IMG/VR virus record: IMGVR_UViG_3300008107_000253
Span: 1-64,000 of that record
Origin: a virus
Direction: 5' to 3' (one strand)
Length of the DNA stretch: 64,000 nt
Part shown: positions 17,630-64,000 of the stretch, in pieces
How the letters are laid out: each line of letters starts with the position of its first letter
How positions within the stretch are numbered: the first letter of the stretch is position 1
Notes under the pieces: generated by a model
What the model saw: the letters and a program-made list of their open reading frames with translations, nothing else
Told to the model about the DNA's origin: nothing
The model's database searches: none
Made by a program: the position numbers and the translations under genes

Positions 17630-19069
17630 TTATGAAATGGGTTGTAATACCGTCGCTTGAACAGCAATCAGTTCGACGTCACCTCTTGCGAAATCATTAT
17701 TGATGTCGCGGCGAATACGAACTCTAAAATAATCATTAGCGGATAATGTCGACAATGCTGAATATCCTAATGTAGTTGATGTGACCTTTGATACACCGGA
17801 TGTTGTAGGCACTGTTGCACCAATGATAGTGGCAGAATTGCTCCAAATCATACTAACCGAATCAAGGCTGCTTAAATCAAGAGATTGCGTATCGACAATC
17901 CATCCGACCGTACAAAGTGCATTTGTTTCCGTAGTGCAAGACCATCTTACAGCAATTTCCATGCCCCCTGTGAAATTTGTACTAATTGGAATTACTACAG
18001 GGAATATAGCTGCATTTTCTGTTGTTTCAGTAAAGTCTAATACGTCAATACCTCCTCTTGTATCAAGTGTTGCGAAGTTTGCAGATGGTGGTTGATTGTG
18101 TCTTGGAAACCATGTTTTTAATAACGTAGCACGAGCACTACTTGTAGAACCACCCCATGTACTGCTATTAGTAGTTACAGTTGTATATACATTATTCCAA
18201 TTTGCACTATTAGCTGTAAGGTTAGTATACGCTTGATTCCAGTTGCCGCTGTTAGCAGTCACTGTATTATTGACCGCAGAATTGCTTGTACTGGTGCCCC
18301 ATGTACTACTATTAGCAGTTACTGTTGTGTACGTTAAATTCCAATTACCACTATTAGCAGATGTTCTATTAGCAGTAAGGTTTGTATACGATTGATTCCA
18401 ATTACTACTAGTACTCGACAATGCTGTATAACTTTGGTTCCAGTTTGAACTATTAGCAGATGTTACATTGAAAGCATTATTCCAATTACCACTATTGACT
18501 GTAAGATTAGTATAGCTTTGATTCCAGCTTGCACTATTAGCAGATGTTGTATTGAAAGCATTGTTCCAATTACCACTATTGACTGTAAGATTAGTATAGC
18601 TTTGATTCCAATTACCACTATTAGCAGTAAGATTAGTATAGCTTTGATTCCAATTTGCACTTGTGCTTGTAAGGGCCACAAATCCTTGATTCCATCTTGC
18701 ACTATTGGATGTGAGATTTGTATATGATTGATTCCAATTACTGCTATTAGCAGTAAGATTAGTATAGCTTTGATTCCAGCTTGCACTATTAGCAGATGTT
18801 GTATTGAAAGCATTGTTCCAATTCGCACTATTAGCAGTAAGGTTTGTATACGATTGATTCCAGCTTGCACTATTAGCAGATGTTGTACTGAAAGTATTAT
18901 TCCAATTACTGCTATTAGCAGTAAGATTAGTATAGCTTTGATTCCAATTGCCACTATTAGCAGTCACTGTATTATTGACCGCAGAATTGCTTGTACTGGT
19001 GCCCCATGTACTACTATTAGCAGTTACTGTTGTGTACGTTAAATTCCAATTACCACTATTAGCAGATGT
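17630..19069 (-). CDS. Repeat tail fibre, C-terminal part (frameshifted from the N-terminal part)
   Basis: This is the open frame from just after an in-frame TGA at 19072-19070; its first ATG is at 18967. It continues the NWNQSYTNLTANS-type repeats of the upstream frame. It ends in a non-repeat beta-rich head of about 190 residues (PSANFATLDTRGGIDVLDFTE, ending VELIAVQATVLQPIS), probably the fibre tip or trimerisation domain. No start signal precedes 18967. The natural reading is that this and 19039-20127 are one gene of about 830 codons interrupted by a single frameshift, not two genes. Confidence 0.7.
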   Translation of the reverse strand, partial: TSANSGNWNLTYTTVTANSSTWGTSTSNSAVNNTVTANSGNWNQSYTNLTANSSNWNNTFSTTSANSASWNQSYTNLTANSANWNNAFNTTSANSASWNQSYTNLTANSSNWNQSYTNLTSNSARWNQGFVALTSTSANWNQSYTNLTANSGNWNQSYTNLTVNSGNWNNAFNTTSANSASWNQSYTNLTVNSGNWNNAFNVTSANSSNWNQSYTALSSTSSNWNQSYTNLTANRTSANSGNWNLTYTTVTANSSTWGTSTSNSAVNNTVTANSGNWNQAYTNLTANSANWNNVYTTVTTNSSTWGGSTSSARATLLKTWFPRHNQPPSANFATLDTRGGIDVLDFTETTENAAIFPVVIPISTNFTGGMEIAVRWSCTTETNALCTVGWIVDTQSLDLSSLDSVSMIWSNSATIIGATVPTTSGVSKVTSTTLGYSALSTLSANDYFRVRIRRDINNDFARGDVELIAVQATVLQPIS

Positions 19070-19995
19070 TCAATACCCCATGTGCTGCTATTTGATTGCA
19101 CTGTTGAGTAAGTTGAATTCCAATTACTGCTATTGGCAGTAAGGTTAGTATAGCTTTGATTCCAATTGCCACTATTAGCAGTCACTGTATTATTGACCGC
19201 AGAATTGCTTGTGCTGGTTCCCCAAGATGCACTATTCGCTGTTACTGTTGAGTAAGCCGTGTTCCAGTTACCACTATTAGCTGTAAGATTTGTATACGAT
19301 TGATTCCAATTAGCACTATTAGATGTCACTGCATTATTGACTGCAGATGTAATGGGACTAGTACCCCACGTGCTGCTATTTGATTGTACTGTTGAATATG
19401 CTTGATTCCAATTACTACTAGTGCTAGACAATGCTGTATAACTTTGGTTCCAGTTTGAACTGTTGGTAGATGTTACATTGAAAGCATTATTCCAATTTGC
19501 GCTTGTGCTTGTAAGAGCCGCAAATCCTTGATTCCATCTAGCACTATTAGCCGTAAGATTAGTATATGATTGATTCCAATTACTGCTATTAGCGGATGTT
19601 GTGCTAAAAGTATTGTTCCAGTTTGCACTATTAGCCGTAAGATTAGTATATGATTGATTCCAATTTGCACTATTGGATGATACTAAATTATTAATAGCAG
19701 AATTTCCGGTGCTAACTCCCCAAGATGCACTATTCGATGACACCGTCGAATATACTGAATTCCAATTAGCACTATTAGCAATAACAATATTATTAACAGC
19801 AGAATTGCCTGTACCTGAACTCCATGTACTACTATTGGCTGTAAGAACTGCATATGATTGATTCCAAAAACTACTATTGGAAATAACCAACGAATTGACT
19901 GCAGGATTTCCAGATCCAATACCCCATGTTGAGCTATTGGATGTAAGAGTGGTGTATGCTTGATTCCAATAACTACTATTGGAAATAACCACTAT
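18120..19995 (-). repeat. Coding repeat array of the tail fibre shaft
   Basis: More than 35 imperfect copies of a roughly 45-base coding unit (15 residues, consensus around N-W-N-Q-S-Y-T-N-L-T-A-N-S). Some blocks are exact: bases 18252-18366 and 18957-19071 are a 115-bp perfect duplication. Such near-identical units favour recombination and also assembly error. Confidence 0.9.
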
Positions 19996-20127
19996 AGAAA
20001 CGCCCGGATCTGTTGGTGCAAATACTTTAACATCCCATTTATTAAGAGCAGCATTATATTGCCAAGTATTCAATCCGAATGAAACAAGCTGACCATCTGT
20101 TGCTGATATTGGAAATTGCAATGCCAT
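19039..20127 (-). CDS. Repeat tail fibre, N-terminal part
   Basis: 362 residues. The first 45 (FPISATDGQLVSFGLNTWQYN, NKWDVKVF) are a short attachment domain common at the start of phage fibres that dock on a baseplate or another fibre. Then come repeats of about 15 residues built on S-N-W-N-Q-S-Y-T-x-L-T-A-N-S, and longer S-T-W-G-x-S-x-x-N-S-A-V-N-N variants. The frame breaks at GIEHLLIVVIGI, where the repeat continues in the -1 frame. A late-promoter element precedes the ATG. It is probably the start of a long fibrous shaft. Confidence 0.75.
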   Translation of the reverse strand: MALQFPISATDGQLVSFGLNTWQYNAALNKWDVKVFAPTDPGVSIVVISNSSYWNQAYTTLTSNSSTWGIGSGNPAVNSLVISNSSFWNQSYAVLTANSSTWSSGTGNSAVNNIVIANSANWNSVYSTVSSNSASWGVSTGNSAINNLVSSNSANWNQSYTNLTANSANWNNTFSTTSANSSNWNQSYTNLTANSARWNQGFAALTSTSANWNNAFNVTSTNSSNWNQSYTALSSTSSNWNQAYSTVQSNSSTWGTSPITSAVNNAVTSNSANWNQSYTNLTANSGNWNTAYSTVTANSASWGTSTSNSAVNNTVTANSGNWNQSYTNLTANSSNWNSTYSTVQSNSSTWGIEHLLIVVIGI

Positions 20128-22561: not shown

Positions 22562-23152
22562 TTAAATAATTGCTGTCTTAGATGTAGCAATGAAAATATC
22601 TTGAATCATTGAATAAAATTCTTGAATAACATCATTTGCAAAGCTTAATACGACCTGATCTGTCATTCGTGTGGAGTATGCAAATGCTGGTGCTTTTGGT
22701 CCTGCATTGATATTAATGCCTAAATGTCCGAGTGTCGCCCCATTAACTTCATGGCAAATAGAAACGCTGGCTTTGCCTCTTGGTAATACCAAGCCATGAT
22801 GGTCACTTACAAATTCATTTTCAACCATGATGTCATCGCCTTCTAATGTAATTCTTGGAATGCCTTTTGAATGAAGAATTTGAGCCACCTGTGCAATGAA
22901 AAGTCTTTGAAAACATACAGCACCAAAGCGATCAAGATTTGGAATCTCCCAAACAAATTGAATTGCATCGTCGCTATGAATGAAATCATTATTCAATACA
23001 TCTTCAAGGTCTACAAGATTTGATGTTACATCCATTGACCCTCGAAATGCCATAATATCTCCTAATGGATTAACTTTCTTGCGAAGATACTTGTATGCAA
23101 ATCTTTGATGAATAAGAGAACCGTCGTAACTTTTAATTTCTGTGTTATACAT
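22562..23152 (-). CDS. DUF366-like protein
   Basis: 196 residues. Motifs I associate with the DUF366 family are visible: KSYDGSLIHQRFAYK near the N-terminus, GDIMAFRGSMDVT, LVDLEDVLNNDFIHSDDAIQF, QRLFIAQVAQIL, and a C-terminal GKASVSICHEVN and LGHLGINI. DUF366 is known mostly from archaea and some bacteria, and its biochemical role is not established to my knowledge. Its presence in an operon with QueC and a glutamine amidotransferase makes a part in deazaguanine or nucleotide metabolism worth testing. Overlaps the glycosylase gene by 8 bases. Confidence 0.6.
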   Translation of the reverse strand: MYNTEIKSYDGSLIHQRFAYKYLRKKVNPLGDIMAFRGSMDVTSNLVDLEDVLNNDFIHSDDAIQFVWEIPNLDRFGAVCFQRLFIAQVAQILHSKGIPRITLEGDDIMVENEFVSDHHGLVLPRGKASVSICHEVNGATLGHLGININAGPKAPAFAYSTRMTDQVVLSFANDVIQEFYSMIQDIFIATSKTAII

Positions 23153-23606
23153 AATAGAGTGGTGAAGTTGTTAGTGTATTAATATAATTTGGCATGCTCA
23201 CAGAATCAATGTATTTTCCTCGATACCTCCAGAATAATTTATCTCCCTTGGCATGTATCTTTTCAACAATGCGTGTTTTGAGAATATCTGAATCTCTGTT
23301 ACTTGGTCTCCAATCATTTAAAAGATGCTCTGGGTATTCATCTAACTTAAATTCTTTATCTGTTACTTTAAATTTTCGATTAATAATTTCGTTTTTAATT
23401 TCATTATGTCTTTTATGAAGGTAAAGAATTTTGTCAGTCCAAAAAAGAATATGACCTTTATTCAAAGTCATAGCAGGAGGTATTTTAGCCTTCATCTGAA
23501 AATTATATTTTCTCAGCATTCCATCAACAATTAATAGCTCTGACTGTTCTGCTATTAAATGTTGATCGCATAAAATTTCAGGATTAATTCCTGCATTACA
23601 TCTCAT
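23145..23606 (-). CDS. denV: Pyrimidine-dimer DNA glycosylase (T4 endonuclease V/DenV-like)
   Basis: 153 residues (T4 DenV 138). The signature DQHLIAEQSEL at residues 14-24 aligns directly with T4 DQHLMAEYREL, including the catalytic Glu at about residue 23. It is followed by LNKGHILFWTDKILYLHKRHNEI, matching the T4 [22 protein letters not shown] block, and a C-terminal Trp-Arg-Tyr-Arg-Gly-Lys motif. The enzyme excises UV-induced cyclobutane dimers. Residue 2 is Arg, not the Thr whose amino group is the T4 nucleophile. The start is fixed by an ATGA overlap with the amidotransferase gene. Confidence 0.8.
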   Translation of the reverse strand: MRCNAGINPEILCDQHLIAEQSELLIVDGMLRKYNFQMKAKIPPAMTLNKGHILFWTDKILYLHKRHNEIKNEIINRKFKVTDKEFKLDEYPEHLLNDWRPSNRDSDILKTRIVEKIHAKGDKLFWRYRGKYIDSVSMPNYINTLTTSPLYYV

Positions 23607-24223
23607 GGTACAAAATAAAGTGGCTTGGTGTTGTATTTATGTGCTGATATTAATTCATGACCGACAACTTCAAATACTGTATGTTCTGCAATACTTGTTT
23701 TACATGAATCAGTTTCTACAGAAGAAAAATCACCCGACCATCTATCAATAAATAAAGTATTTGCTGATCTGGTAATGTATAACTTTTTTGTAGTCATATT
23801 ATACATCCAACATGACCATGTACCTTGTAATTTTTCAAAAAATGAAAAATCTGAATATGCATATAATAAAAAAGGAATTATACTACTGTCAATTGCATAA
23901 TCAGCAATGCTCAAATTATGTTCTTTTAGTAAAGCTTTATGATTTGTCAAAATGCCATTATGAGCAACTAACCAATTCCTAAATGAAAATGGATGGCATG
24001 TGTCTGGTGTAAATTCAAGACCAGCACCAGTAGGTGCTCTTAAATGACCAAGATATACATCCGCATCGGTATTGATTTTAGCTTTTACATCTTCAGATTT
24101 GTATATTGTTGCTTTATTATCACTAAGAAATAATCCACCAAAGCATTTCACTCCACGAACAGAATTCGCATCATATAACTCATTGAATCTTTCTAACTTA
24201 CTTGATTTGAAAATACCACACAT
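23603..24223 (-). CDS. Class II (N-terminal nucleophile) glutamine amidotransferase
   Basis: 206 residues starting Met-Cys-Gly-Ile-Phe; Cys2 would be the Ntn nucleophile after Met removal. Other family marks: YLGHLRAPTGAG near residue 77, HPFSF, and VAHNGILTNHKALL (oxyanion NG motif). It ends near residue 200 without an asparagine synthetase, GlmS or PurF partner domain, so it is a stand-alone ammonia-generating domain. Two genes upstream is QueC. In some phages a comparable domain is fused to QueC (Gat-QueC) and linked to 7-amido-7-deazaguanine in DNA. Partnership with QueC is therefore my main inference; surface-sugar amidation is the alternative. Confidence 0.75.
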   Translation of the reverse strand: MCGIFKSSKLERFNELYDANSVRGVKCFGGLFLSDNKATIYKSEDVKAKINTDADVYLGHLRAPTGAGLEFTPDTCHPFSFRNWLVAHNGILTNHKALLKEHNLSIADYAIDSSIIPFLLYAYSDFSFFEKLQGTWSCWMYNMTTKKLYITRSANTLFIDRWSGDFSSVETDSCKTSIAEHTVFEVVGHELISAHKYNTKPLYFVP

Positions 24224-24225
24224 AC

Positions 24226-24900
24226 TTAACTATACTTTGTTAAAAACAAATTTTCACTATTTTTCCACACTTTATCACTCGTAGAATTTAGACCTCCTGA
24301 TTGATGAGTAACATGCAATGGAATTGTTGACATTTTCAATCCTGCTTTGTTTGCTTGTATGCAGAAGTCAATATCATAATGGTGGAAATGAAATTGAGGA
24401 TCGAATAGCACTCCCTTATCGATAATTGCGTTTTTATTCAGTGCTAAAAACAGACCATCCATCACTACACATCTTTTTGGTGATAATCCAAAATTAGTAG
24501 CAAATGAATGATTGTCTGGTGTAAAATGATTTACAAACCCACACCAATTTTCTTTTGGCGACATCAAATGCCATAATGCTGGTGATTTAATTTGCATTGC
24601 ACTTGCACCTGCCAATCCAAGTATTTCAAATTCACGGAATCCTTGTTCTAATTTTTCCAGCCAAAATAAGTCTTCGACAATGACGTCATCATGGACACAA
24701 ACCACGTAGTCTTGCTCGCAGTGTAAAATTGCATGATTATAAACATCAGGCAATCCAATTTTATTATTATACGCAATATATGCTTGATCGCTGACTTTTG
24801 CTTTTCTGAGAAATTTAGCAAGGTGTGAATCTTTCCAAAATTCATCATGTGATTTTTGGGTAGCAGATGCAAAGTAAATATCTGTAATTTTTATACTCAT
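24226..24900 (-). CDS. GT-A family glycosyltransferase in the QueC operon
   Basis: 224 residues. GT-A layout: a nucleotide-binding N-terminal half with VVCVHDDVIVEDLFWLEKL near residue 68 (DxD-like Asp-Asp) and an acceptor half with HFHHYDIDFCIQANKAGL, typical of small glycosyltransferases related to the StrF group. It overlaps QueC by 4 bases and is followed 2 bases later by the amidotransferase. The acceptor is unknown: a host surface glycan, a virion protein or a modified base are all possible. Its position inside the deazaguanine operon is the odd point. Confidence 0.7.
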   Translation of the reverse strand: MSIKITDIYFASATQKSHDEFWKDSHLAKFLRKAKVSDQAYIAYNNKIGLPDVYNHAILHCEQDYVVCVHDDVIVEDLFWLEKLEQGFREFEILGLAGASAMQIKSPALWHLMSPKENWCGFVNHFTPDNHSFATNFGLSPKRCVVMDGLFLALNKNAIIDKGVLFDPQFHFHHYDIDFCIQANKAGLKMSTIPLHVTHQSGGLNSTSDKVWKNSENLFLTKYS

Positions 24901-25637
24901 AGGATTCCGTATTTCTTATAATCAATGGAAATTGCATATTCCATGGGATCTTTCATTTTAGCATTAATGAACCCCTGTAATCTATTAGCACACGCCACAC
25001 ATTCACCACATGAAATTGTTTTGATTCCAGGCACATCGATTGGGTTATAACAAGTCCATGTTAATTCAAACGGCACATTTAATTCAGCGCCTCTATGAAT
25101 AATTTCTTCTTTATTCATGGTCATTAGAGGTGCTTTAATTTCGATTGCATTCTTTCTATTAAGACAAATGACCTTATTAATTGACTCAAGAAACTCTGCA
25201 GAAGCATCCCAATATCCGGATAGAGTGTCTGCTTGTTGTGCTCCATAATATACTTCATTTGATTCGGTGCTTTCAGCAAAACCAACTGCAGTGCTCAACA
25301 TAATCATATTGCGATTGGGTACATAACTTAGAGGCTGAGGATCACCAAGAACGTCTCTCGCTTTTGGTATTTCATATTCTCCATTCAAGAGTGCCGATTT
25401 TTGAAGATAATCAAAAACATGCTTTAGTGAAATCGAATGTAAAACGACTTTGTTTTGAATTTTTGAGGTCAAATTATCGATCACATTCTCTGCTGCCTTA
25501 CATTCAATTGAATGCCTTTGTCCATAGAAGAAATTAAGACAATATAAAATTTCCCCCTCTTTTAATTGTGATGCTACCTCATAAAGCAAGACGGTTGAAT
25601 CTAACCCTCCGCTAAATATAATTACCTTGTTAGTCAT
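24897..25637 (-). CDS. queC: 7-cyano-7-deazaguanine (preQ0) synthase QueC
   Basis: 246 residues from ATG at 25637; the longer frame from 25709 would cross the divergent gene. PP-loop ATPase motif FSGGLDSTVLL at residues 8-18 and a C-terminal zinc site TCYNPIDVPG then CGECVACANRLQGF are both complete. QueC converts 7-carboxy-7-deazaguanine with ATP and ammonia, through an amide, to preQ0. It is the first gene of a minus-strand operon extending to 21072 and has a well-placed sigma70-type promoter. FolE, which starts the same pathway, is at the right end of the window; QueD and QueE are not seen here. Confidence 0.93.
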   Translation of the reverse strand: MTNKVIIFSGGLDSTVLLYEVASQLKEGEILYCLNFFYGQRHSIECKAAENVIDNLTSKIQNKVVLHSISLKHVFDYLQKSALLNGEYEIPKARDVLGDPQPLSYVPNRNMIMLSTAVGFAESTESNEVYYGAQQADTLSGYWDASAEFLESINKVICLNRKNAIEIKAPLMTMNKEEIIHRGAELNVPFELTWTCYNPIDVPGIKTISCGECVACANRLQGFINAKMKDPMEYAISIDYKKYGIL

Positions 25638-25643
25638 AAATAA

Positions 25644-25672
25644 AATATAATACACTGAAATCAACAATTCAA
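25644..25672 (-). promoter_or_regulatory. Sigma70-like early promoter of the queC operon
   Basis: On the minus strand TTGAAT (25672-25667), a 17-base spacer and TATATT (25649-25644), 6 bases before the QueC ATG at 25637. The predicted transcript starts at or next to the start codon. Confidence 0.6.
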
Positions 25673-25678
25673 GTGATA

Positions 25679-25686
25679 AATAAATA
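25679..25686 (+). promoter_or_regulatory. Late promoter element, AATAAATA
   Basis: AATAAATA ends 5 bases before ATG 25692, with an overlapping GATAAATA four bases earlier (25675-25682). It lies back-to-back with the early queC promoter in a 54-base divergent intergenic region. Confidence 0.55.
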
Positions 25687-25691
25687 TAGTT

Positions 25692-26510
25692 ATGTCCAAG
25701 CTTAAACAAATTTTCCTATCTACTCTTCGAGAGGCTGACGAAGAAAAAACATATGATCCTACTGCAGATGAAGTGCCTCTACGCAGCAGGCTTGAGAATG
25801 ATGACATTGAACCAGATGCTCTTGATGTAGAACCAGGCCCTCCGAATACAGGATATAAAGCTGAAGTCGAGGCTGCTAAAAAATGGATTACTGAAATTGA
25901 AAGATTCGTTGAATATTTAAATGACATTGACCAAGGATCAATCAACCGCCAAATTAACGTGCTCGACAGAGACAATAGTGTCTTTAAAGGCATTGCTTCA
26001 CGTATTTCGGATAAGATTGCACGTGTATCATCTGACCTCGCTGAATTAAAAGAAATTATGGCTGGATTTGTTATCGCATCTGATCGCAAAGCTAAAAACA
26101 TTCGCCTTTCAGATTCATTAAGTGTTGCTGATGTTGTAGTCGAAACGTTGTCGAGAATCGGCTTTGAAACAACATATTCAAGCCCAAAATTATGTCGTAT
26201 GGTACTTGAGACCACAGAAGGCGAACTTAAAGCTGAAGTTCATGAAGACGGTACTGTAAACGGCGAAAGCATTGATGCTTATTTAGATCGCCTTGCATCT
26301 GAATATGATATCAATGCAATTATCGAAGATGATGTTCTTCATGAAGAAATTGTGATGGATGAAAAAATCCTCAAACAAATCAAAGAAATTGATGATAAAC
26401 TAGCGGTGCAGTGGAATCAAGATTTGTATGCAAAGCGCAAAGCTCTCCAGTCAAAAATGGAAACAAATTATATTGATGTCGCGAAAAGCTTAATTGGCGA
26501 AAAAGATTAA
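25692..26510 (+). CDS. Late protein of unknown function, possibly packaged
   Basis: 272 residues, acidic and mostly helical. A short basic N-terminal helix (MSKLKQIFLSTLREADEEK) is followed by a disordered acidic Pro-rich segment (residues 20-55). Then come helical regions (AAKKWITEIERFVEYLNDI, FKGIASRISDKIARVSSDLAELKEIM) and a C-terminal coiled-coil-like part. Not recognised. The late-promoter element and the helix-plus-acidic-tail start suggest a virion or prohead-internal protein; this is inference. It is convergent with primase and overlaps it by 4 bases. Confidence 0.7.
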   Translation: MSKLKQIFLSTLREADEEKTYDPTADEVPLRSRLENDDIEPDALDVEPGPPNTGYKAEVEAAKKWITEIERFVEYLNDIDQGSINRQINVLDRDNSVFKGIASRISDKIARVSSDLAELKEIMAGFVIASDRKAKNIRLSDSLSVADVVVETLSRIGFETTYSSPKLCRMVLETTEGELKAEVHEDGTVNGESIDAYLDRLASEYDINAIIEDDVLHEEIVMDEKILKQIKEIDDKLAVQWNQDLYAKRKALQSKMETNYIDVAKSLIGEKD

Positions 26511-44397: not shown

Positions 44398-45183
44398 ATG
44401 AAAATAGGAATAGGAATCATTACATGCAATCGTCCAGAGTTTTTAAAAAAATTATGGGCAACTATACCAGACTATATCGATGATATAGCCATCGTCAATG
44501 ATGGGAATAAAATCGATAATATAGAAGGTGCGTACATTATAAACAATACCCAAAAGTTACAAGTTGGTGGGTCAAAGAATGTGGCGATGAAATATCTTTT
44601 AAATCAAGGATGTGATTATATATTCACACTTGAAGATGATATTTTAATCGAAGATCCTACTGTATTTTTACAATACATCGAAGCATACAAATCTACAGGT
44701 ATTTGTCATTTTAATTTTGGGTTTTCAAATCTCGAAAATTTAGATGCATCTTTGCAACCTGTTTATAAAAAAGTCATTGAATATCCAAACGGTACAAAAA
44801 TTGTATTAACACCTAATGTATTAGGAGCATTCACCTTTTACACAAGAAATGCATTAATGGAAATAGGATTACATAATCGTATTTTTAATAAAGGCCATGG
44901 CGATCATCCAGAATTGACATATAGAGCATATAAGTATGGCTATACAACTCCATTTTGGTGGTTTGCGGATATTTACAATAGTTGGAATATGATTAAAAAT
45001 CAATCAAATATGTCATCTGATAGCACAATCAGAAATAACAATTTTTGGGAATCATTTAACGAGGCGAACGATGCATTCAAACAATTGCATGGGTATAAAA
45101 TGACAGAGGTTCCGGATATCGGTGAAGAAAAAGTATATGAAATCCTTAAACAATTAAAAAAGAAAAATGGCCATGAAAGATAA
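44398..45183 (+). CDS. GT-A family glycosyltransferase
   Basis: 261 residues. N-terminal GIGIITCNRPEFLKKLWATIP and VNDG are GT2-type nucleotide-sugar motifs. The metal-binding motif is YIFTLEDDILIEDPTVF near residue 76, and the acceptor half has a typical HGDHPELTYRAYKYGY. First of five consecutive glycosyltransferases inserted between genes 47 and 46. A close relative follows immediately, so they look like a tandem duplication. Acceptor unknown. Confidence 0.8.
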   Translation: MKIGIGIITCNRPEFLKKLWATIPDYIDDIAIVNDGNKIDNIEGAYIINNTQKLQVGGSKNVAMKYLLNQGCDYIFTLEDDILIEDPTVFLQYIEAYKSTGICHFNFGFSNLENLDASLQPVYKKVIEYPNGTKIVLTPNVLGAFTFYTRNALMEIGLHNRIFNKGHGDHPELTYRAYKYGYTTPFWWFADIYNSWNMIKNQSNMSSDSTIRNNNFWESFNEANDAFKQLHGYKMTEVPDIGEEKVYEILKQLKKKNGHER

Positions 45184-45955
45184 AATAGGAGTCGGAATTA
45201 CAACATACAATGCAGAATCATATTACAAAATACTATATGATTCTTTACCTCTTGATCATATTGATTGTTTAGTTACTGTAAATGGAGGTGACAAATATTC
45301 AAACAATTACTCAGGGCATTGGATCCAGCATACCCAAAATAAATTTCCGTCAGTGTGCAGGAATGAATGTGTAAAATATTTACTTGATCAAAATTGTGAA
45401 CATATCTTCATTATTGAAGATGATATGATTATTTTAAAATCCAATATATTCAACGAATACATTAACGCTTCAAAAGAATCAGGTCTAAAATATTTGTGTT
45501 TTGTAAGTACTAGCCCAGGAGCAGGAAGTCCTCACAACAGAACACCAAAAACAATAATTGACTATCCAAATAATAGAAGAATTGCATTTTATCAAAATAT
45601 GTGCAATGAATTTACATATCATCATAAGACTGCATTTTTAAACACAGGATGGTATGACGAAAATATGCGTGATGGTTTTGATGTTGACATGGCATATCGT
45701 GAATCTAAAAACAAGCACAGTTCATTATTTTGGTATTTTGCAGACATTATAAATTCAGACGAATATATCATGAATAATCCAAACGCAACAAGTCGCCTAC
45801 AAACAGAACGACCTGATGGCAGTAGAGCAGATATCATAGATAAAATATGGGAATATTTTTACTCCAAACACCAAATATTAGTTAATGATATCCCTCATCC
45901 AAGTTTAGATGATTTGAAAATCAAACTCAAACAAATATATGAATCAAAAAATTGA
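45167..45955 (+). CDS. GT-A family glycosyltransferase, paralogue of the preceding gene
   Basis: 262 residues. Same architecture as its neighbour: KIGVGITTYNAESYYKILYDSLP, VNGG, HIFIIEDDMIILKSNIF, and FDVDMAYRESKNKHSS. The shared order and similar spacing support a duplication followed by divergence, perhaps to a different acceptor or donor. It overlaps the upstream gene by 17 bases; a second ATG lies at 45173. It overlaps the next gene by 17 bases as well. Confidence 0.8.
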   Translation: MAMKDKIGVGITTYNAESYYKILYDSLPLDHIDCLVTVNGGDKYSNNYSGHWIQHTQNKFPSVCRNECVKYLLDQNCEHIFIIEDDMIILKSNIFNEYINASKESGLKYLCFVSTSPGAGSPHNRTPKTIIDYPNNRRIAFYQNMCNEFTYHHKTAFLNTGWYDENMRDGFDVDMAYRESKNKHSSLFWYFADIINSDEYIMNNPNATSRLQTERPDGSRADIIDKIWEYFYSKHQILVNDIPHPSLDDLKIKLKQIYESKN

Positions 45956-46733
45956 CGTTTTTCTGCCAGTCGCACCAAAAGATCTTTTTAGATCAAGATT
46001 GGTTATTAAATATTTAACCAGGCATGTCAATAACATTAATAATATCCATATATGCACACCTACACCAGTGTTGCCTATATTTGAAAAAAATGAATTAGAG
46101 TATAATATTCAATATCATTTGGATAGTGAAATATTACCATATGTTGTGCCTCAAAAATGGAAATTTAGGCCTAATTGGATTCTACAACAATTTTTAAAGC
46201 TTTTTCAAGATGTAACGAATACAGACTATTACATAACAATTGACAGCGATGTAATTGTTACTAATCAATTAAATTTTTTCGAAAACACAAATCCGATATG
46301 GTATTATGGCGAGGACCAATGTGAATCACAGTATTTTAATTTTAACAAATCAATGTTTAATTTACCTCGAAAGGCTTCTCATACATACATAGGAGATATT
46401 GGGTTCTTTAATAAAAATATTGTCAAACATTTAATAGAATATTCTGGACTAACCAAAGAACAAATCATCGAACAAAGCTACAATATAATTACAAATACTT
46501 GTCATCTATCTGAGTTTGAATTGTACGGTAATTTTATCGAAACATTTTATCCTGATTTATATATTACAAAACGGTTAAAGGCTCTTAAAAATGGAAAATT
46601 TCAATTCAATCCATATGAAACTAATTGGAATCTTGAGGAAACGTTACAATTAATACAAAAAGGAACAATCGAAAAATATGATGTTGTTAACATGCATTCT
46701 TGGTGCATAAATTCACATTCTTGGTTAAAATGA
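45939..46733 (+). CDS. Glycosyltransferase-like protein (DUF6492-type)
   Basis: 264 residues. KIDVFLPVAPKDLFRSRLVIKYL starts a Rossmann-like half. WILQQFLKLFQDVTNTDYYITIDSDVIVTNQL near residue 100 gives a DxD motif; the second half contains SHTYIGDIGFFNKNIV and SEFELYGNFI. This layout is found in putative glycosyltransferases of surface-polysaccharide loci. It is part of the island with overlapping start and stop codons (ATGA with the next gene). Confidence 0.65.
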   Translation: MNQKIDVFLPVAPKDLFRSRLVIKYLTRHVNNINNIHICTPTPVLPIFEKNELEYNIQYHLDSEILPYVVPQKWKFRPNWILQQFLKLFQDVTNTDYYITIDSDVIVTNQLNFFENTNPIWYYGEDQCESQYFNFNKSMFNLPRKASHTYIGDIGFFNKNIVKHLIEYSGLTKEQIIEQSYNIITNTCHLSEFELYGNFIETFYPDLYITKRLKALKNGKFQFNPYETNWNLEETLQLIQKGTIEKYDVVNMHSWCINSHSWLK

Positions 46734-47608
46734 AAGCAATATTAATACATTTATCTCCTCATAATTTGCCAATTAATGGCCAAATGATATGCGATAAATA
46801 CGTATACAACACTCTGCCTTCTTATGCTAATATATGTGTAAACCAATGTACGAAATATTTTCATGATCCTGTTGTAATTGATAATCAATATGTCATTGAA
46901 CACATGAGAGATGATATTAAAAATCTTTATGATATTTGTCTTATAAAATATCCAACACAATCATCAAATGCCTTTTGGTTTACAACAATGGCAAGATTAT
47001 TTGTTTTATATCATTATTGTAAACATAATAGTATAAATGAGTTCATTCATTTAGAATATGACAACTTAATATATTCAGAGATGAATGAACTTAAAAAATT
47101 AAAACCATCGTTATATTTTACAAGCGTTGGTCCCTATATCGGATCTGCTGGATTTGTGTATTGTAATTCTTTATCACATTTAGAAAAATTTATTGTTCAC
47201 CTAACAAAATTGATAAACACAGGAGAACAAATACTGTACAATGATAATATTGTTCCTCATTTCTTACCAGTTTCTGAAATGGTCATGATAGATTTGATCT
47301 ATAGAGGAACACAAAATGTAATAGAGTATCTACCAACATTACCGCTGGGAGTAGGAAGTAATCATTTTAATGAGTTAGGAATACTGTTTGATGGTGCTTC
47401 ATACGGCCAATACATAGGAGGTACAAATAACGGGCATAGCAAAGGATTCTGCGACCCCAATCATTATGTGGGCCAAAATATTTCAAATAACACAATAAAT
47501 GTTTTATTTCAAAATAAAAAACCATATACATCATATAACGGCAAATTAATTCCAATCGTTAATTTGCACATTCACAGTAAACAACTAGAACTATATTCTA
47601 ATGAATAA
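46730..47608 (+). CDS. Probable glycosyltransferase
   Basis: 292 residues from ATG 46730 (an ATG at 46700 lies within the previous gene). It has FWFTTMARLFVLYHYCKHNSINEFIHLEYDNLIYSEM near residue 80, a GT-A like donor-site region with an acidic motif in place of DxD, and a C-terminus HSKGFCDPNHYVGQNI. The family is not certain. Context among four other glycosyltransferases carries most of the weight. Confidence 0.6.
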   Translation: MKAILIHLSPHNLPINGQMICDKYVYNTLPSYANICVNQCTKYFHDPVVIDNQYVIEHMRDDIKNLYDICLIKYPTQSSNAFWFTTMARLFVLYHYCKHNSINEFIHLEYDNLIYSEMNELKKLKPSLYFTSVGPYIGSAGFVYCNSLSHLEKFIVHLTKLINTGEQILYNDNIVPHFLPVSEMVMIDLIYRGTQNVIEYLPTLPLGVGSNHFNELGILFDGASYGQYIGGTNNGHSKGFCDPNHYVGQNISNNTINVLFQNKKPYTSYNGKLIPIVNLHIHSKQLELYSNE

Positions 47609-48374
47609 TACTTTTATCACGGGTAATAAATTTAAATCTCTATGCGATGATTATGTTGACATAGACAAACATTATATTGATATTTCAAAAAAACCAAAAA
47701 CAATATTTGTAAAGACCGACTATATTCCTGCATTTTACAAAAAAATAATGCCACTAATAGATTATAATTTTAGCTTAGTTACACATAATTCCGATCTACA
47801 TATCAACGAAAGATATTCGGTAATATATGAGGATAAACGAATAATTAATTGGTACGCTATGAATTGCGAAATAATTCATCCAAAGCTTAAACCAATACCA
47901 ATAGGAATTGCAAATGAAATATGGGAACACGGAAATGTCGATATTTTAAATGAAATCATAGAAAAAGAAATATCACATGACAATCTTTGCTATAGCAATT
48001 TTGATATATCTACTAACCCAAACAAACGCAAACATGTATACGACATCATACAAAGTAAATCATTTATTGATTGTGAAACAAAAAAATTACCCTTCAAAGA
48101 ATATTTGACAAAATTAAAAAGCTATAAGTATGTAATATCACCACCGGGTAATGGAGTAGATTGTCATCGAATATGGGAATCAATTTACCTTGGTGTTATA
48201 CCTATCGTAGAAAACCACGCCGCATTGAGAGAATTTAAAGATTTGCCTATATTGTTTGTCGATTCGTTTTCGGATATAAATGAACAAATGTTGAATCATC
48301 TATATTTAAAAATCAAATATAGAGACAAACACAAAGTAAATATGTTAAGTGATTATAACAAAAACTTACTATAA
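47601..48374 (+). CDS. Exostosin-like glycosyltransferase
   Basis: 257 residues. The C-terminal motif YKYVISPPGNGVDCHRIWESIYLGVIPIVENHAALREFKDLPILFVD, near residue 175, is the sugar-nucleotide site of exostosin/GT47-like and related GT-B enzymes. The N-terminal half is less conserved. Last gene of the five-glycosyltransferase run; it ends before a 123-base gap that carries a late promoter for the methyltransferase. Confidence 0.7.
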   Translation: MNNTFITGNKFKSLCDDYVDIDKHYIDISKKPKTIFVKTDYIPAFYKKIMPLIDYNFSLVTHNSDLHINERYSVIYEDKRIINWYAMNCEIIHPKLKPIPIGIANEIWEHGNVDILNEIIEKEISHDNLCYSNFDISTNPNKRKHVYDIIQSKSFIDCETKKLPFKEYLTKLKSYKYVISPPGNGVDCHRIWESIYLGVIPIVENHAALREFKDLPILFVDSFSDINEQMLNHLYLKIKYRDKHKVNMLSDYNKNLL

Positions 48375-48483
48375 TGCGCAACATTTTTTTACCACAATAT
48401 AGGATAAGATTGTTTGCATGTCGAGGAATTAACTCACTTCTCACTAGCTACTAAATCTTTTGGTTGCATAAAAAAAATACCTA

Positions 48484-48491
48484 GATAAATA
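48484..48491 (+). promoter_or_regulatory. Late promoter element, GATAAATA
   Basis: GATAAATA ends 6 bases before ATG 48498. The rest of the 123-base gap (48375-48497) holds nothing else I recognise. Confidence 0.55.
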
Positions 48492-48497
48492 TAAGGC

Positions 48498-49091
48498 ATG
48501 ATACCACATTTGATTAACGAAACACTAAATGGAACTGGTGATTCTTCACAGCACACAATGGCACTTTTCGGCTTAGCACTGACTTTAAAAGCAAAAAATA
48601 TTTTAGAATTAGGAGTTAGAGCAGGGCTTACTACATTGCCTTTATTACACTCAACATTATACACAGGAGGACACCTGACAAGTATTGATATCGAAGAAAA
48701 TGCAGCAATAAGACAACTGCATAATAATAACTCAAGTAATTGGGATTATATTATTTCAGAAGCACAACACTATTTAAAAAATTTACCACAAGATAAAATT
48801 TTTGATTTAGTTTTAATTGATGATTGGCATGATGGTGATCATCTTTTTGAAGAAATAAAATTAATCGAGCCCCATATTACACCATCGTCATTAATTTTAA
48901 TACATGATTGTATGTGTTATAATACACAGCCATCATATCATGTATACCTTGATAAAGAAGGTGAATTTGCAAATGGAGGTCCTTATGGTGCCGTGCAAAG
49001 ATTGGATCGTGAAATATGGGAATATTCTACAATTCCTGTTAATAATGGCATGACAATTTTAAGAAAGCTTGACAAAACTTTAATTTTTTAA
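48498..49091 (+). CDS. Class I SAM-dependent methyltransferase
   Basis: 197 residues. Motif I NILELGVRAGLTTLPLL near residue 35, acidic loop HLTSIDIEENAA, motif IV FDLVLIDDWHDGDHLFEEI near residue 103 and LILIHDCMC match small Rossmann methyltransferases (Methyltransf_24 type) often found with glycosyltransferases. The late-promoter element suggests action late in infection, perhaps on virion glycans or proteins. Substrate unknown. Confidence 0.75.
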   Translation: MIPHLINETLNGTGDSSQHTMALFGLALTLKAKNILELGVRAGLTTLPLLHSTLYTGGHLTSIDIEENAAIRQLHNNNSSNWDYIISEAQHYLKNLPQDKIFDLVLIDDWHDGDHLFEEIKLIEPHITPSSLILIHDCMCYNTQPSYHVYLDKEGEFANGGPYGAVQRLDREIWEYSTIPVNNGMTILRKLDKTLIF

Positions 49092-49130
49092 TTTATAAAA
49101 TAAATTAAAAAATGCATAAAATTATTTCCG

Positions 49131-49694
49131 ATGGATCATTATTATTATAATATAGGCGAAGATTGGTTCACATACCCGAACATATACGCAATGGCTGTCA
49201 ATGGCGCACATGCTAATGCTAAATTTGTTGAAGTAGGATCTTGGAAGGGACGCAGTTCATGTTTTATGGCTGTTGAAATTTTAAATTCTGGTAAAAATAT
49301 AGAATTTTATTGTGTCGATACTTGGAAAGGTAGTGAAGAACACCAAGAAATGGATATAATTCATAGTGACAATTTATATCAAGAGTTTATTAAAAACATT
49401 AAACCAGTATCTAATATCATTAAGCCAATTAGAATGGATTCTTTGGATGCAAGTAAAACATTTGAAGATGAAACACTCGATTTTGTTTTCATAGATGCCG
49501 CTCATGACTATGAATCTGTCAAAAAGGATATTATTCACTGGTATCCAAAGGTCAAGAAAAATGGAATTTTAGCTGGGCATGATTATGCACCATCATGGGG
49601 AGTCAAACGAGCAGTTGACGAATGGGCTGCTGAAAATAATATTGACATTGTAGTAGATCATGGCAGTATATGTTGGCTTTGCAAAAAGAAATAA
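49131..49694 (+). CDS. Class I SAM-dependent methyltransferase
   Basis: 187 residues. AKFVEVGSWKGRSSCFMAVEIL (motif I), CVDTWKGSEEHQE, LDFVFIDAAHDYESVKKDIIHWYPKVKKNGILAGHDYAPSWGVKRAVDEW represent the motifs in order; individual stretches are typical of Methyltransf_24 enzymes in polysaccharide loci. Tandem with the preceding methyltransferase of the same type but not close in sequence. A possible sigma70 promoter (TTGACA at 49069) lies in the previous gene. Confidence 0.78.
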   Translation: MDHYYYNIGEDWFTYPNIYAMAVNGAHANAKFVEVGSWKGRSSCFMAVEILNSGKNIEFYCVDTWKGSEEHQEMDIIHSDNLYQEFIKNIKPVSNIIKPIRMDSLDASKTFEDETLDFVFIDAAHDYESVKKDIIHWYPKVKKNGILAGHDYAPSWGVKRAVDEWAAENNIDIVVDHGSICWLCKKK

Positions 49695-52812: not shown

Positions 52813-55392
52813 ATGTGGAGAAATGTCTATTACGATAATAGCCGAAAGAAATTATTTTTGTGGAGTTGGGATAAGCAAGGCAAGCGCCGAATGTATGACT
52901 TTGCCTTTGAACCATTTCTCTATGTAGAAACCACTGATGCAAAAAATGCAGATGGCAAGAGCTTGTTTGATACCAATTTGAAGAAGCTTACTTTCGCGAG
53001 TGAAAGCGCTCGTAATGCATATATTAAGCAATCAAATATCCGTAGGCTATTTTACAACCTAAAACCAGAACAACAATTTCTTTTAGATCTTTATAGAGAC
53101 AAGGACTTTGATTGGTCTGAATTGCCATTTAAGGTTTTTTATGCTGACATTGAGGTGTATTCTCCTTATGAATTTCCAGAGGCAGATGAAGCAAAACACC
53201 CAATCAATGTTGTCACTATTTATGATAGCATTGCACAGACATATCATGTATGGGGATTGAATGATTATGATAAGAGCAAGTTGAATGAAGTTCTACAAAA
53301 ACAGAACATATCACCACTCGACATATCAAAAATCAAATACACACATTGCCGTTCGGAAACAGAATTGCTTCAGAAGTTTTTAGACTTCTGGACAAATGAT
53401 TATCCTGATCTAGTGACAGGATGGAATATTGAAGGATTTGATATTCCATATCTCATTAACCGAATTTCATATATACTCAGTGAAGCCGATGCAAGATCAC
53501 TCTCACCAGTCAATAAGCTCTATGTAAGAGAGGGAATTGCTACAAAATTCGGTCGAGAAATTAACAAATGGTATATTCGAGGGCTTACTTGCCTTGATTA
53601 TATGGATTTGTATAAGACATTCAGCAGAGGTGAGCAAGATTCTTATTCATTAAATAACATCGCAGCGGTCGAGCTTGATATTACAAAACTTTCACACAAT
53701 GCAAGTGACCTTGCGTCTTTGAGTGAAAGTGATTGGAATATGTTTGTCAATTACAACATTCATGACGTAAACCTCGTTCGTCTGCTCGATGAAAAGTTGA
53801 ATTATGTGAACATTGCTCGCTTCTTGGCTTATAAAGGATTTACAAAAATTGAAGATTCTTTAGGCAAGATCATGATTGTAACAGGCGCAATGTGTAAGGA
53901 AGCAAATCGGCTTGGTAAAATTATTCCAACATTCGCACCTTCAAATTCACAAGAGGATTATGTTGGTGGTTATGTTAGAGAACCACAAAGAGGATTGCAT
54001 GAAGCTGTAGTGTCATTTGATGCTAATTCACTATATCCTAATACAATCATTACACTTAATTTGTCACCAGAAACAAAAATTGGCAAGATCATTTACAAGG
54101 ACGATGATGAATGCAGAGTCAAATTTATAAATGGTAAAATACAATCAATGAGCCATGAAAAGTTGCACGAATTGTGCTCAAAAAACAATTTAGCATTATC
54201 AATGGCTGGTGTCTTATATAGACAAGATGTAAAGGGCATTTGCCCGTCATTTATCGATTCCTTATATCAAGAGCGTGTTGTTATTCAAAATCAAATTGAA
54301 CAGCTAGAATCACAGAATTTGAAGGAGAACAAGGCGAAAATTAAGCATCTTGACCAGATGCAATATACGATCAAAATCTTTTTGAATTCGGCATATGGTA
54401 CTTATGCTAACAAGTATAGTCCTTTTTATGACATTGATATGGCGGCGAGTATTACAGAGACAGGACAGGCTGTAATCAAGCAAGCAGCTGGAGTTGTAAA
54501 TCAATACTTTATACAAGAACACAATCTCCCTGATAAAGATTATATCATTTATGGAGATACGGATTCGATTTATCTTACCATGAAGTCTTATCTTGCAATC
54601 AAGCAAGTTACTGTATTGCATGATAATGGAAATGTAACAGAAGAATTTGTTAAAGAAACAGACACTCTGCAGTCATATATCAATGACAAGATCAATAATT
54701 GGGCTCGCAATGTTTTACATTCAACAGATCCAAGATACTTCTTTAAGAGAGAATCAATTTGTGATGCTGGTCTCTTCTTGGAAAAGAAACGATATATTCT
54801 TAGTGTCCGATATGACGGAAAAAGACACAAACACAAATTTAAGTATGTCGGGGTTGAAGTACAGCGAAGCACGTATTCCGCAGCAATCAAAACCATGATG
54901 AAAGACATTATCATGGAAGTGTTTCGCACCAAAGACAGGCTTAAATCAGATGCCAAATATCGTGAATGTTACGAGAGGTTTAAGGAATTGCCTATTGATG
55001 AGATTGCTTTCAGATCTTCAATTAAAGACTACGAAAAATATGCAAGCCAATCGGATGGATTCAAAATAGCTTTGCATACACCTATTCATGTCAAGTCGGC
55101 AATTTATTATAATACATTGCTTGAAACATTAAAATTGAAAGCAAAATATCAAGCAATTGTTTCCGGCACCAAAATCAAATACATCTATACAGGACAAAAC
55201 AAATACGGCATCAAGTGCATAGGCTTTAATGATACGATTCCAGAAGAATTTGATATTAAAGTTGATGTAGAAAAAATGTTTGAATCATTAGTTGCACCGT
55301 GCATTGAAAGAGTGTATAATTCATTGGGGTGGCAACTGCCTGACATGAGAAGACAATACCAATGTGATTTCTTAGAACTTTTCGGATTATGA
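52813..55392 (+). CDS. 43: Family B DNA polymerase (T4 gp43-like)
   Basis: 859 residues (T4 gp43 898). Exonuclease motifs FYADIEVYS (109-117), GWNIEGFDIPYLINR and YNIHDVNLV. Polymerase motifs VVSFDANSLYPNTI (motif A), FLNSAYGTYANKYSPFYD (motif B) and IYGDTDSIYLTM (motif C, about residue 580). The C-terminus FLELFGL looks like a sliding-clamp-binding tail. Replicative polymerase with proofreading. Its stop overlaps the DpdA-like gene (ATGA), so replication and base modification are translationally coupled. Confidence 0.96.
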   Translation: MWRNVYYDNSRKKLFLWSWDKQGKRRMYDFAFEPFLYVETTDAKNADGKSLFDTNLKKLTFASESARNAYIKQSNIRRLFYNLKPEQQFLLDLYRDKDFDWSELPFKVFYADIEVYSPYEFPEADEAKHPINVVTIYDSIAQTYHVWGLNDYDKSKLNEVLQKQNISPLDISKIKYTHCRSETELLQKFLDFWTNDYPDLVTGWNIEGFDIPYLINRISYILSEADARSLSPVNKLYVREGIATKFGREINKWYIRGLTCLDYMDLYKTFSRGEQDSYSLNNIAAVELDITKLSHNASDLASLSESDWNMFVNYNIHDVNLVRLLDEKLNYVNIARFLAYKGFTKIEDSLGKIMIVTGAMCKEANRLGKIIPTFAPSNSQEDYVGGYVREPQRGLHEAVVSFDANSLYPNTIITLNLSPETKIGKIIYKDDDECRVKFINGKIQSMSHEKLHELCSKNNLALSMAGVLYRQDVKGICPSFIDSLYQERVVIQNQIEQLESQNLKENKAKIKHLDQMQYTIKIFLNSAYGTYANKYSPFYDIDMAASITETGQAVIKQAAGVVNQYFIQEHNLPDKDYIIYGDTDSIYLTMKSYLAIKQVTVLHDNGNVTEEFVKETDTLQSYINDKINNWARNVLHSTDPRYFFKRESICDAGLFLEKKRYILSVRYDGKRHKHKFKYVGVEVQRSTYSAAIKTMMKDIIMEVFRTKDRLKSDAKYRECYERFKELPIDEIAFRSSIKDYEKYASQSDGFKIALHTPIHVKSAIYYNTLLETLKLKAKYQAIVSGTKIKYIYTGQNKYGIKCIGFNDTIPEEFDIKVDVEKMFESLVAPCIERVYNSLGWQLPDMRRQYQCDFLELFGL

Positions 55393-56192
55393 ATAAAACA
55401 TACATTACACACGAAGCACCTATATCTATTTTAGATACAGTAGGTTCAATTACTGACTACGACTATTGTTTGGTTCATCTTCTAGATGAATCAGAAAAGT
55501 ATCGTGATTATTTTTTCAGGCAGAAAAAAGCAGGACGAAGAATCATTCTTGACAATAGTATATTCGAACTTGGCACTGCATTTGATCATGCCAAATATGA
55601 GCAATGGATCGTCAAGCTAGAACCATTTATTTACATTATGCCTGATGTGCTTGGTGATTTGGATGCTACTGTTGAAAATGCAAATGTATGGAGTAAAAAG
55701 AAATTTAATAGCAGACCGATGGCAGTAGTGCAGGGTCAAAGCATGGATGAGCTTACTACATGTTATACAAAGTTCATTCATCTCGGTATCAATACAATTG
55801 CGATTGGATTTAATCATGACTTCTTTGTTCGTGATGAATCAACAAGGGACTGGGATCAAGCGAACGGCAGAATAAAATTCGTTCAACATTTGCTGAATAA
55901 ATTTTATTGGAATGGAGGCGCATTCATCAATGATGGCGAAGGATTTTATCACCATTTGCTGGGTTGCTCTTTGCCGGTGGAATTCTGTCATTCAATTTAT
56001 CAATCGGTTCACATTAATAGCATCGACACTTCAAGCCCAGTATTGCACGGACTTCTTGGTGTTGATTATGAGCCACTAGGCATCTTAACAAAGAAGAAAA
56101 TTAAAATGAATGATCTTATACATGCAAATGTTACATCAGAACAATTGCAAAAAATCATTGCAAACATTCACACCTTCAGCGATATTATTTGA
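55389..56192 (+). CDS. dpdA: DpdA-like DNA guanine transglycosylase (TGT superfamily)
   Basis: 267 residues with the layout of a tRNA-guanine transglycosylase barrel: IILDNSIFELG (Asp55, in the position of the general acid), YIMPDVLGD (84-90), AVVQGQS (112-118), INTIAIGF (134-141), HHLLGCSLP (188-196) and SIDTSSP (Asp213, likely nucleophile). The Cys-rich zinc site and tRNA-binding parts of true TGT are absent, as in phage DpdA enzymes that exchange guanine in DNA for a 7-deazaguanine. QueC and FolE in the same window support this role. Subfamily is not decided. Confidence 0.8.
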   Translation: MNKTYITHEAPISILDTVGSITDYDYCLVHLLDESEKYRDYFFRQKKAGRRIILDNSIFELGTAFDHAKYEQWIVKLEPFIYIMPDVLGDLDATVENANVWSKKKFNSRPMAVVQGQSMDELTTCYTKFIHLGINTIAIGFNHDFFVRDESTRDWDQANGRIKFVQHLLNKFYWNGGAFINDGEGFYHHLLGCSLPVEFCHSIYQSVHINSIDTSSPVLHGLLGVDYEPLGILTKKKIKMNDLIHANVTSEQLQKIIANIHTFSDII

Positions 56193-56193
56193 T

Positions 56194-56739
56194 ATGAAAA
56201 TCTGTATTAGCGGGCCTCAATGTTCAGGTAAAAGCACACTCATGAAAGCGTTGGGTAATATTGAAATGTTTGAAGATTATCATTTCATTGATGAACCAGT
56301 ACGCAAGCTTGTTGCTGAAAAAGGAATTAAGATTAATAAAATTGCAGACTATGAAAGTCAAATGATGATTCTCGAAGAACACCATCGAAACACGTATCGG
56401 CATTATTCTTTAATCACAGATCGTGGGGCATTAGATGCTTTTACGTATGCTACTTGGTCGTATCTCAAGGGCGATTATTCCTATAAGGAATGGACTGATT
56501 TTTCAGACATCTTCCAAAAAACAATGAGAAGATATGATCGAATTTTTATTATGCCTCCGCTTGAAATGAAAAATGATGGATTCCGTTCTTTAGATGTCAA
56601 TTGGCAAAATGAAATTGCTAATCTGATGGAAGATATTGCAAATGAATGGTGTGCCGTTAATAATTGGATTGTGCCGGTACATAATGTACCCACCGGCAAT
56701 ACAAATGATTATGTGAAATTTATTCTTAGCCTCGTATGA
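56194..56739 (+). CDS. P-loop nucleotide/nucleoside kinase-like protein
   Basis: 181 residues from ATG 56194, one base after the DpdA-like stop. Walker A MKICISGPQCSGKSTLMKAL; a FIDEPVRKLVAEKG motif as in NadR-type and AAA_28 kinases; then YSLITDRGALDAFTYATWS, and a lid-like region. Likely phosphorylates a nucleoside or nucleotide. Between a base-exchange enzyme and a phosphoribosyltransferase, a salvage function for released guanine or a modified base is a testable idea. It overlaps the next gene by 4 bases. Confidence 0.7.
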   Translation: MKICISGPQCSGKSTLMKALGNIEMFEDYHFIDEPVRKLVAEKGIKINKIADYESQMMILEEHHRNTYRHYSLITDRGALDAFTYATWSYLKGDYSYKEWTDFSDIFQKTMRRYDRIFIMPPLEMKNDGFRSLDVNWQNEIANLMEDIANEWCAVNNWIVPVHNVPTGNTNDYVKFILSLV

Positions 56740-57215
56740 CTAAATTATACCTATCTTGGGACACCGTAACAGAAGCTTCAGAACAGCTTGCACATAATCT
56801 ATATGATCAATTTCCAGGTGAATCAAAAAATGATATTGTTGTGTTTGCGCCTTATTATGGTGGCTGGCCTGTAGCATCGATGATCATTAATCAATTGCGC
56901 TCATTGTTTAATGATGAACATTACAAGCCTGCCATTTTATCAGAAACAGATATGACAATGCATCTTTTGGTTCCGTTCTTGAAATCGAAGCATCTTGTCA
57001 TTATTGATGATGTGCTTGATACTGGTCGCGTGATTAACAATATTATTTGGAGAATTGTATCGGAATGTCGTGCATTTATGACACAAGAAGAAATTCTGCA
57101 AAGGATTCATATTTGTACTGTCGGTAAGAAAAGAAATTGTGAATGGAAATGCAATCACTTTTATGTTCATGAATGGGATCCAAATAAATGGATTTGTTAT
57201 CCATGGGAAACATAA
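56736..57215 (+). CDS. Type I phosphoribosyltransferase-like protein
   Basis: 159 residues. PRPP-binding signature HLVIIDDVLDTGRVINNI near residue 90 and FAPYYGGWPVASMIINQLRSL near residue 36 match xanthine/hypoxanthine-guanine phosphoribosyltransferases. The C-terminal part has the Trp/Cys-rich KRNCEWKCNHFYVHEWDPNKWICYPW, where this family places its base-contacting residues. Predicted to join a purine-like base to PRPP. It is in line with the DpdA-like and kinase genes. Confidence 0.75.
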   Translation: MTKLYLSWDTVTEASEQLAHNLYDQFPGESKNDIVVFAPYYGGWPVASMIINQLRSLFNDEHYKPAILSETDMTMHLLVPFLKSKHLVIIDDVLDTGRVINNIIWRIVSECRAFMTQEEILQRIHICTVGKKRNCEWKCNHFYVHEWDPNKWICYPWET

Positions 57216-63859: not shown

Positions 63860-64000
63860 ATGACAAAACAAACTTACAATCGAGAAGAAGCCGAAAAGGC
63901 TTATGGAGGATTTCTCAAAGCTCTTGGCTTTAATTGGCGAGACAATCCACACATGAAAGATACACCGAAGCGTGTAACCAAAGCATGGATTGAGGATCTT
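63860..64000 (+). CDS. folE: GTP cyclohydrolase I, N-terminal part (runs off right edge)
   Basis: Only the first 47 codons are present. REEAEKAYGGFLKALGFNWRDNPHMKDTPKRVTKAWIEDL has the typical FolE N-terminal pattern (ALGF-x-W, DTPxRVxKAW). FolE converts GTP to dihydroneopterin triphosphate, which is the first step of both folate and 7-deazaguanine synthesis. With QueC and DpdA it makes the deazaguanine pathway the likely reason for its presence. The zinc and catalytic residues lie beyond the window. Confidence 0.88.
   Translation, partial: MTKQTYNREEAEKAYGGFLKALGFNWRDNPHMKDTPKRVTKAWIEDL

Follow-up and report, generated by a model that had tools for sequence, protein, structure and literature searches.

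A predicted DpdA-family guanine transglycosylase beside the polymerase gene of a T4-like phage, with candidate companion genes for 7-deazaguanine DNA modification

Phages of the immuto type, which combine QueF with a formyltransferase, are reported to carry preQ1 derivatives. The transglycosylases of Campylobacter phage CP220 and Flavobacterium phage immuto reportedly form a group that Cui et al. 2023 (NAR 51:9214, as cited in PMC13329287) named DpdA3 and linked with complete guanine replacement. The DNA of CP220 and CPt10 is reported to contain dADG (cited in PMC8306585). Hutinet 2019 classed the Campylobacter phages as lacking DpdA and proposed a DpdA-independent route for them; the same paper connects the fused Gat-QueC of phage 9g with archaeosine (PMC6884629).

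Here, we compare these systems with a 64,000-nucleotide stretch of viral DNA, referred to below as the window (IMG/VR record IMGVR_UViG_3300008107_000253, positions 1 to 64,000), taken from a viral contig of 71,023 bases. Inspection of its open reading frames reveals a T4-like phage with polymerase, UvsX-like, gp41-like, gp32-like, sheath, and terminase genes. From sequence and structural models, this phage very probably carries 7-deazaguanine in place of guanine in its DNA.

The central gene is an open reading frame at 55389–56192 (+) that encodes a predicted DpdA-type DNA guanine transglycosylase of 267 aa, assigned to the CP220/immuto family on the basis of AlphaFold2, Foldseek, invariant catalytic residues, and homologs in immuto and CP220. 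The AlphaFold2 model, computed with 52 natural relatives in the input, has a mean pLDDT of 92.0 and a pTM of 0.90, and shows a barrel. A Foldseek comparison with the PDB places 7ui4, "DNA preQ0 insertase DpdA", first (E 6e-7), followed by the TGT structures 6rkq, 6ygl, 4q8n, 7ovo, and 4q8q; ranks 1–6 are thus all DpdA or TGT. The modelled protein is a TIM barrel closest to TGT/DpdA structures, as expected from the original prediction of a TGT-fold protein of 267 residues. In particular, residues D55, S57, E60, P85, D86, Q115, G116, and R161, and further H189, G192, D213, S215, and P217, are invariant in 52/52 relatives. With active-site equivalence assigned by motif order and spacing, the protein fits the TGT/DpdA order of DSGxF loop, second Asp, VQG, HxxG of 9g DpdA (His196), and D-S/T-S nucleophile motif. 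The catalytic Asp pair and the base-binding Asp/Gln are present (D55, D86, Q115, and D213); with the predicted barrel and the invariance of D55, D86, and D213, the proposal of a TGT barrel having two active-site Asp residues survives the structural check. The zinc motif CxCxxC...H is not found in the window DpdA, and because its Cys residues lie only at 27, 125, 193, and 200, with no CxCxxC, the original statement that the tRNA-type zinc site is absent is correct.

Pfam and NCBIfam scans of the window DpdA itself return zero matches, PDB sequence searches with the single protein and with a 52-row profile return chance matches only, and a PHROG search gives a strong match to one unknown-function family, phrog_19058 (E 3e-44). 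Sequence links of the family to TGT nevertheless exist, reached independently via the relatives: six of the 52 match Pfam TGT (PF01702) weakly (best E 0.003), and two match phrog_887 (queuine tRNA-ribosyltransferase; 6e-5). Alignment of 9g DpdA with the window DpdA by hhalign is not significant with a single sequence (E 0.064, probability 0.9 percent) or with a 5-sequence profile (E 0.013, probability 3.4 percent); the best of these alignments, though not significant, spans the expected motif. H189 (in HLLG, invariant in 52/52) fits His196 of the 9g HGFG by spacing, not via a significant alignment. By sequence, the window DpdA is not of the 9g type and belongs to the separate CP220/immuto family; that it resembles 9g DpdA only below significance counts against our explanation.

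Homologs in cultured phages are found in Flavobacterium phages immuto, where the protein is annotated DpdA (39% identity; tblastn 5e-45), and in Campylobacter phages CP220, CPt10, CP21, and others, where it is "hypothetical" (35–36% identity; CP220 tblastn 1e-41), with weak homologs in Cellulophaga phages and one Weizmannia phage. The CP220-type homolog found here is the obvious candidate for the transglycosylase of the Campylobacter phages. The window DpdA is homologous to the CP220/immuto transglycosylases, as membership of DpdA3 would require. Across IMG/VR, 568 candidate stretches encode a relative of the window DpdA, and in 50 of 52 representatives folE, queC, queD, queE, or queF lies within 10 kb of dpdA, an association that is more than chance. 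Together with the downstream kinase described below, these genes provide the strongest functional evidence for DpdA. A DpdA with a 7-deazaguanine pathway, as originally proposed, is the best reading on predicted fold, active site, neighbourhood, and homology to a protein of phages in which dADG is reported.

The dpdA gene is preceded by a gene for a T4-type family B DNA polymerase (52813–55392, +), ~31% identical to cultured-phage polymerases. The two genes overlap as the original prediction described: the polymerase reading frame ends with TGA at 55392, and this stop and the dpdA ATG share ATGA. A polymerase gene is upstream of dpdA in 9 of the 52 representatives (10 with a wider limit), which occupy two or more distinct regions of the DpdA tree. 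The coupling singled out in the original prediction is real, and the adjacency of polymerase and dpdA recurs in at least two DpdA lineages; on its own, ATGA coupling shows co-expression only.

Directly 3′ of dpdA are two further genes. The first encodes a P-loop kinase-like protein (56194–56739, +; AAA_28; thymidylate-kinase-like PHROG), which is conserved downstream of window-type dpdA, within 1.5 kb in 31 of the 46 testable representatives. The second, whose start overlaps the kinase stop, encodes a phosphoribosyltransferase (PRTase) of purine type (56736–57215, +; PF00156), which aligns over its full length with the archaeal purine PRTase 1vdm (E 0.002), and has a C-terminal W-I/V-x-x-PWE motif common to its relatives near dpdA. 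A PRTase is present in 15 of 52 dpdA-centred loci versus 1 of 81 DUF366-centred loci. The sequences of a guanine-type PRTase and a kinase at this position suggest salvage of released guanine. The top NCBIfam model for the PRTase is xanthine PRTase, below its cut-off, and this weak match counts against that part of our explanation.

The 5′ part of FolE (GTP cyclohydrolase I) occupies 63860–64000 (+). The FolE start noted in the original prediction belongs to a gene that is complete in the 71,023-base contig (63860–64468) and scores 161.8 of 162 bits against NCBIfam FolE (E 1e-47). The FolE-QueD-QueE-QueC route is covered in part by this contig: FolE and QueC are on it, and QueD and QueE are outside it. 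A search of the whole 71-kb contig finds neither queD nor queE, and their absence from the contig that carries dpdA counts against our explanation; both genes, for which the original prediction had proposed looking, are present in two other sequences, G002 and G028. G002 is a sister phage (195,888 bases) in which FolE, QueD, QueE, QueC, a glutamine amidotransferase (GAT), DUF366, and DpdA are all present, the DpdA being 57% identical to that of the window. No QueF or formyltransferase is found in G002 or on the contig of the window phage. G028 (IMGVR_UViG_3300008459_000205; 32.7 kb) has QueD and QueE 77% and 75% identical to their G002 counterparts, with a QueD–QueE spacing of ~19 kb alike in both, and the window DUF366 is 71–72% identical to that of G002. 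By these identities and this spacing, G028 is plausibly the missing part of the window phage, or of a sibling.

Three features of these sequences are recorded separately. G002 QueE (L025:6950-7819) has an unusually long insertion between the cluster-binding cysteines; HGY replaces HGH in G002 QueD (L024:7721-8323) and also in immuto QueD. A second P-loop kinase-like gene, related to the kinase 3′ of dpdA, lies 20 kb away, in G002 terms ~9 kb downstream (L002:4505-5218).

QueC is encoded on the minus strand (24897–25709; PF06508, E 2e-55), probably from the ATG at 25637 and not from the TTG at 25709. It is complete, as first described, scoring 165.4 bits against the TIGR00364 cut-off of 150.3 and containing SGGxDS. 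The minus-strand order is queC-GT2-GAT-denV-DUF366, with ends mostly overlapping: a GT2-type glycosyltransferase (24226–24900), whose start overlaps the queC stop and which retains HDD and FHxYD motifs; a class II GAT (23603–24223; PF13522) with the N-terminal MCG of an N-terminus that begins MCGIF, a candidate ammonia donor for QueC; a T4 denV-like pyrimidine-dimer glycosylase (23145–23606; PF03013, phrog_1183); and a DUF366 protein (22562–23152; PF04017, E 4e-24). The original prediction was silent on the glycosyltransferase, glutamine amidotransferase, and DUF366 genes adjoining QueC. QueC, GAT, and GT2 are grouped in six other contigs, two of them near-copies in their DpdA, between UvsX-like and helicase-like genes, and are also together in the locus L115. 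A GAT match in Vibrio phage 1.208.B belongs to an amidoligase cluster rather than to one of que genes.

ADG, preQ0, and archaeosine are all candidates for the base, and sequence does not decide among them. Like CP220, the window phage is without QueF, but it has a GAT near QueC. We do not accept archaeosine as predicted from this GAT, as GAT is also near QueC in relatives with QueF and a formyltransferase. Specifically, GAT is near QueC in 17 of 52 dpdA-centred loci, most of which also have QueF, and GAT may therefore merely supply ammonia to QueC. Searching the window with Rfam and for tRNAs gave no match, and hence no preQ1 riboswitch at the gathering threshold.

We consider it highly probable that the locus combines a CP220/immuto-family DpdA with a 7-deazaguanine pathway, coupling to the polymerase, guanine salvage, and protection. 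Our analysis shows the modelled fold, the invariance of the active site, the genes present, and the conservation of their surroundings; the reactions, the salvage, and the protection are inferred. FolE, QueD, and QueE would convert GTP to 7-carboxy-7-deazaguanine, which QueC would convert to ADG, preQ0, or possibly archaeosine base, with ammonia probably from GAT. With its translation coupled to that of the replicative polymerase, the transglycosylase would exchange DNA guanine for the modified base, with D213 as the putative nucleophile and D55, D86, and Q115 in base binding. One guanine would be freed per base replaced and would probably pass to GMP and GTP via the adjacent PRTase and kinase, the GTP feeding FolE. 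The modified guanines would protect phage DNA from host nucleases, and, by kinship, G would probably be replaced completely. The gene order polymerase-dpdA-kinase with its overlaps, and the retention of the kinase beside dpdA, would also fit an exchange at nucleotide level, in which a free guanine deoxynucleotide would be the substrate of the transglycosylase, the kinase would form the triphosphate, and the coupled polymerase would insert it into DNA. We regard this as improbable: DpdA and TGT enzymes work on polymers, and Crippen 2019 reportedly saw no dADG phosphates in Campylobacter phage infections. Still less credible is that the genes raise host tRNA queuosine instead of altering phage DNA. 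FolE and QueC are common to both routes, and this role has been raised for phages without DpdA (PMC6884629), but the window transglycosylase is without the zinc-binding part of the tRNA enzymes, has DpdA as its best fold match, and is homologous to proteins of phages whose DNA is reported to carry dADG.

A further reading extends the guanine-exchange explanation without replacing it: the final base would be a 7-deazaguanine decorated by DUF366 and/or GT2 after DpdA. For GT2, the grouping with QueC and GAT described above argues for it; against it, phage glycosyltransferases often act on other targets. For DUF366, Foldseek places the AlphaFold2 model (pLDDT 90) with biotin/lipoate protein ligases (E 2e-6), behind 2ddz, itself a DUF366 structure, and residues D106, D107, and K127 are invariant and are candidates for the Asp/Lys of an adenylate-forming site. 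Ten of 11 DUF366 contigs also carry a window-type DpdA (in one case a contig-edge fragment), while QueC and GAT are present on the remaining one, a fragment of 108 kb. In the DpdA tree, the proteins from DUF366 phages split into two distant clades, and the DUF366 phages have therefore kept a DpdA though its sequence was exchanged. Against this, the DUF366 phages may be merely one T4-like lineage, and none of 12 further DpdA contigs carries DUF366. Beyond the window's group, the neighbours of DUF366 are clamp-loader and glycosyltransferase genes and not queC, which weakens membership in the pathway on operon grounds alone. On balance, decoration is possible but doubtful. The fuller version, an undescribed 7-deazaguanine hypermodification in which DUF366 adds a carboxylic acid and/or GT2 adds a sugar while PRTase and kinase recycle guanine to the GTP used by FolE, is a little more speculative again.

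DUF366 also occurs elsewhere. The copy in "Microcystis phage MaAM05" (L110, MW495066) was rejected: genes of the pathway are missing from its surroundings, and with SecDF, MurJ, FabI, and flagellar genes the record resembles a bacterial contig rather than a phage. Relatives are present in three Vampirovibrio/cyanobacterial MAGs (L112, L113, and L114), and DUF366 is also matched in two methanogen control genomes.

Other regions of the phage were noted in passing. A plus-strand run of glycosyltransferase-like and methyltransferase-like genes (44398–49694, by inspection only) lies upstream of a gene for a gp46-like recombination endonuclease subunit. A probable tail-fibre gene (17630–20127, −) contains long low-complexity repeats, WNQSYTNLTANSxNWN; a similar repeat starts at the far contig end (L002:7583-9022) and may have broken the assembly there.

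The core of the locus is a further case of known 7-deazaguanine chemistry, and it is the companion genes that merit further attention. The pathway for 7-deazaguanine DNA modification would be extended to a divergent T4-like lineage without a close cultured relative, and the transglycosylase gene is linked to that of the replicative polymerase in at least two lineages. Three additions to the pathway are proposed: an ammonia source dedicated to QueC, recycling of the guanine released, and DUF366 and GT2 as decoration candidates. The PRTase and kinase directly 3′ of dpdA, the pairing of a glutaminase with QueC, and the conserved DUF366 and GT2 companions are new here. For DUF366, whose structure was solved in 2007 and whose function is still listed as unknown, a setting of phage base modification provides a functional lead.

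Among known systems, TGT (PF01702) shares the barrel fold and catalytic residues with the window DpdA, which differs in being without the zinc-binding part, in its length of 267 aa, and in having no Pfam match. The window DpdA is predicted to share the activity class of 9g DpdA (archaeosine in DNA), and both proteins have the DxS, D, HxxG, and D-S/T-S motifs in common order; as in the window, DpdA is beside the polymerase in 9g, and FolE and QueC are present, 9g also having QueD, whereas 9g has a Gat-QueC fusion and the window encodes GAT as a protein of its own. Immuto has a homologous DpdA (39%), FolE, and a PRTase and kinase near dpdA, as in the window, and its cluster also includes QueD and QueE; it differs in having QueF and a formyltransferase-like gene and in being without GAT. 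The dADG system of CP220/CPt10 (Firehammervirus) is set apart from the window by dpdA not adjoining the polymerase gene, by the window GAT having no counterpart in CP220, and by no DUF366 found in any cultured member of the group. It resembles the window in having a homologous transglycosylase (CPT_0056; 36% identity), QueC without QueF, and a P-loop gene directly 3′ of the transglycosylase.
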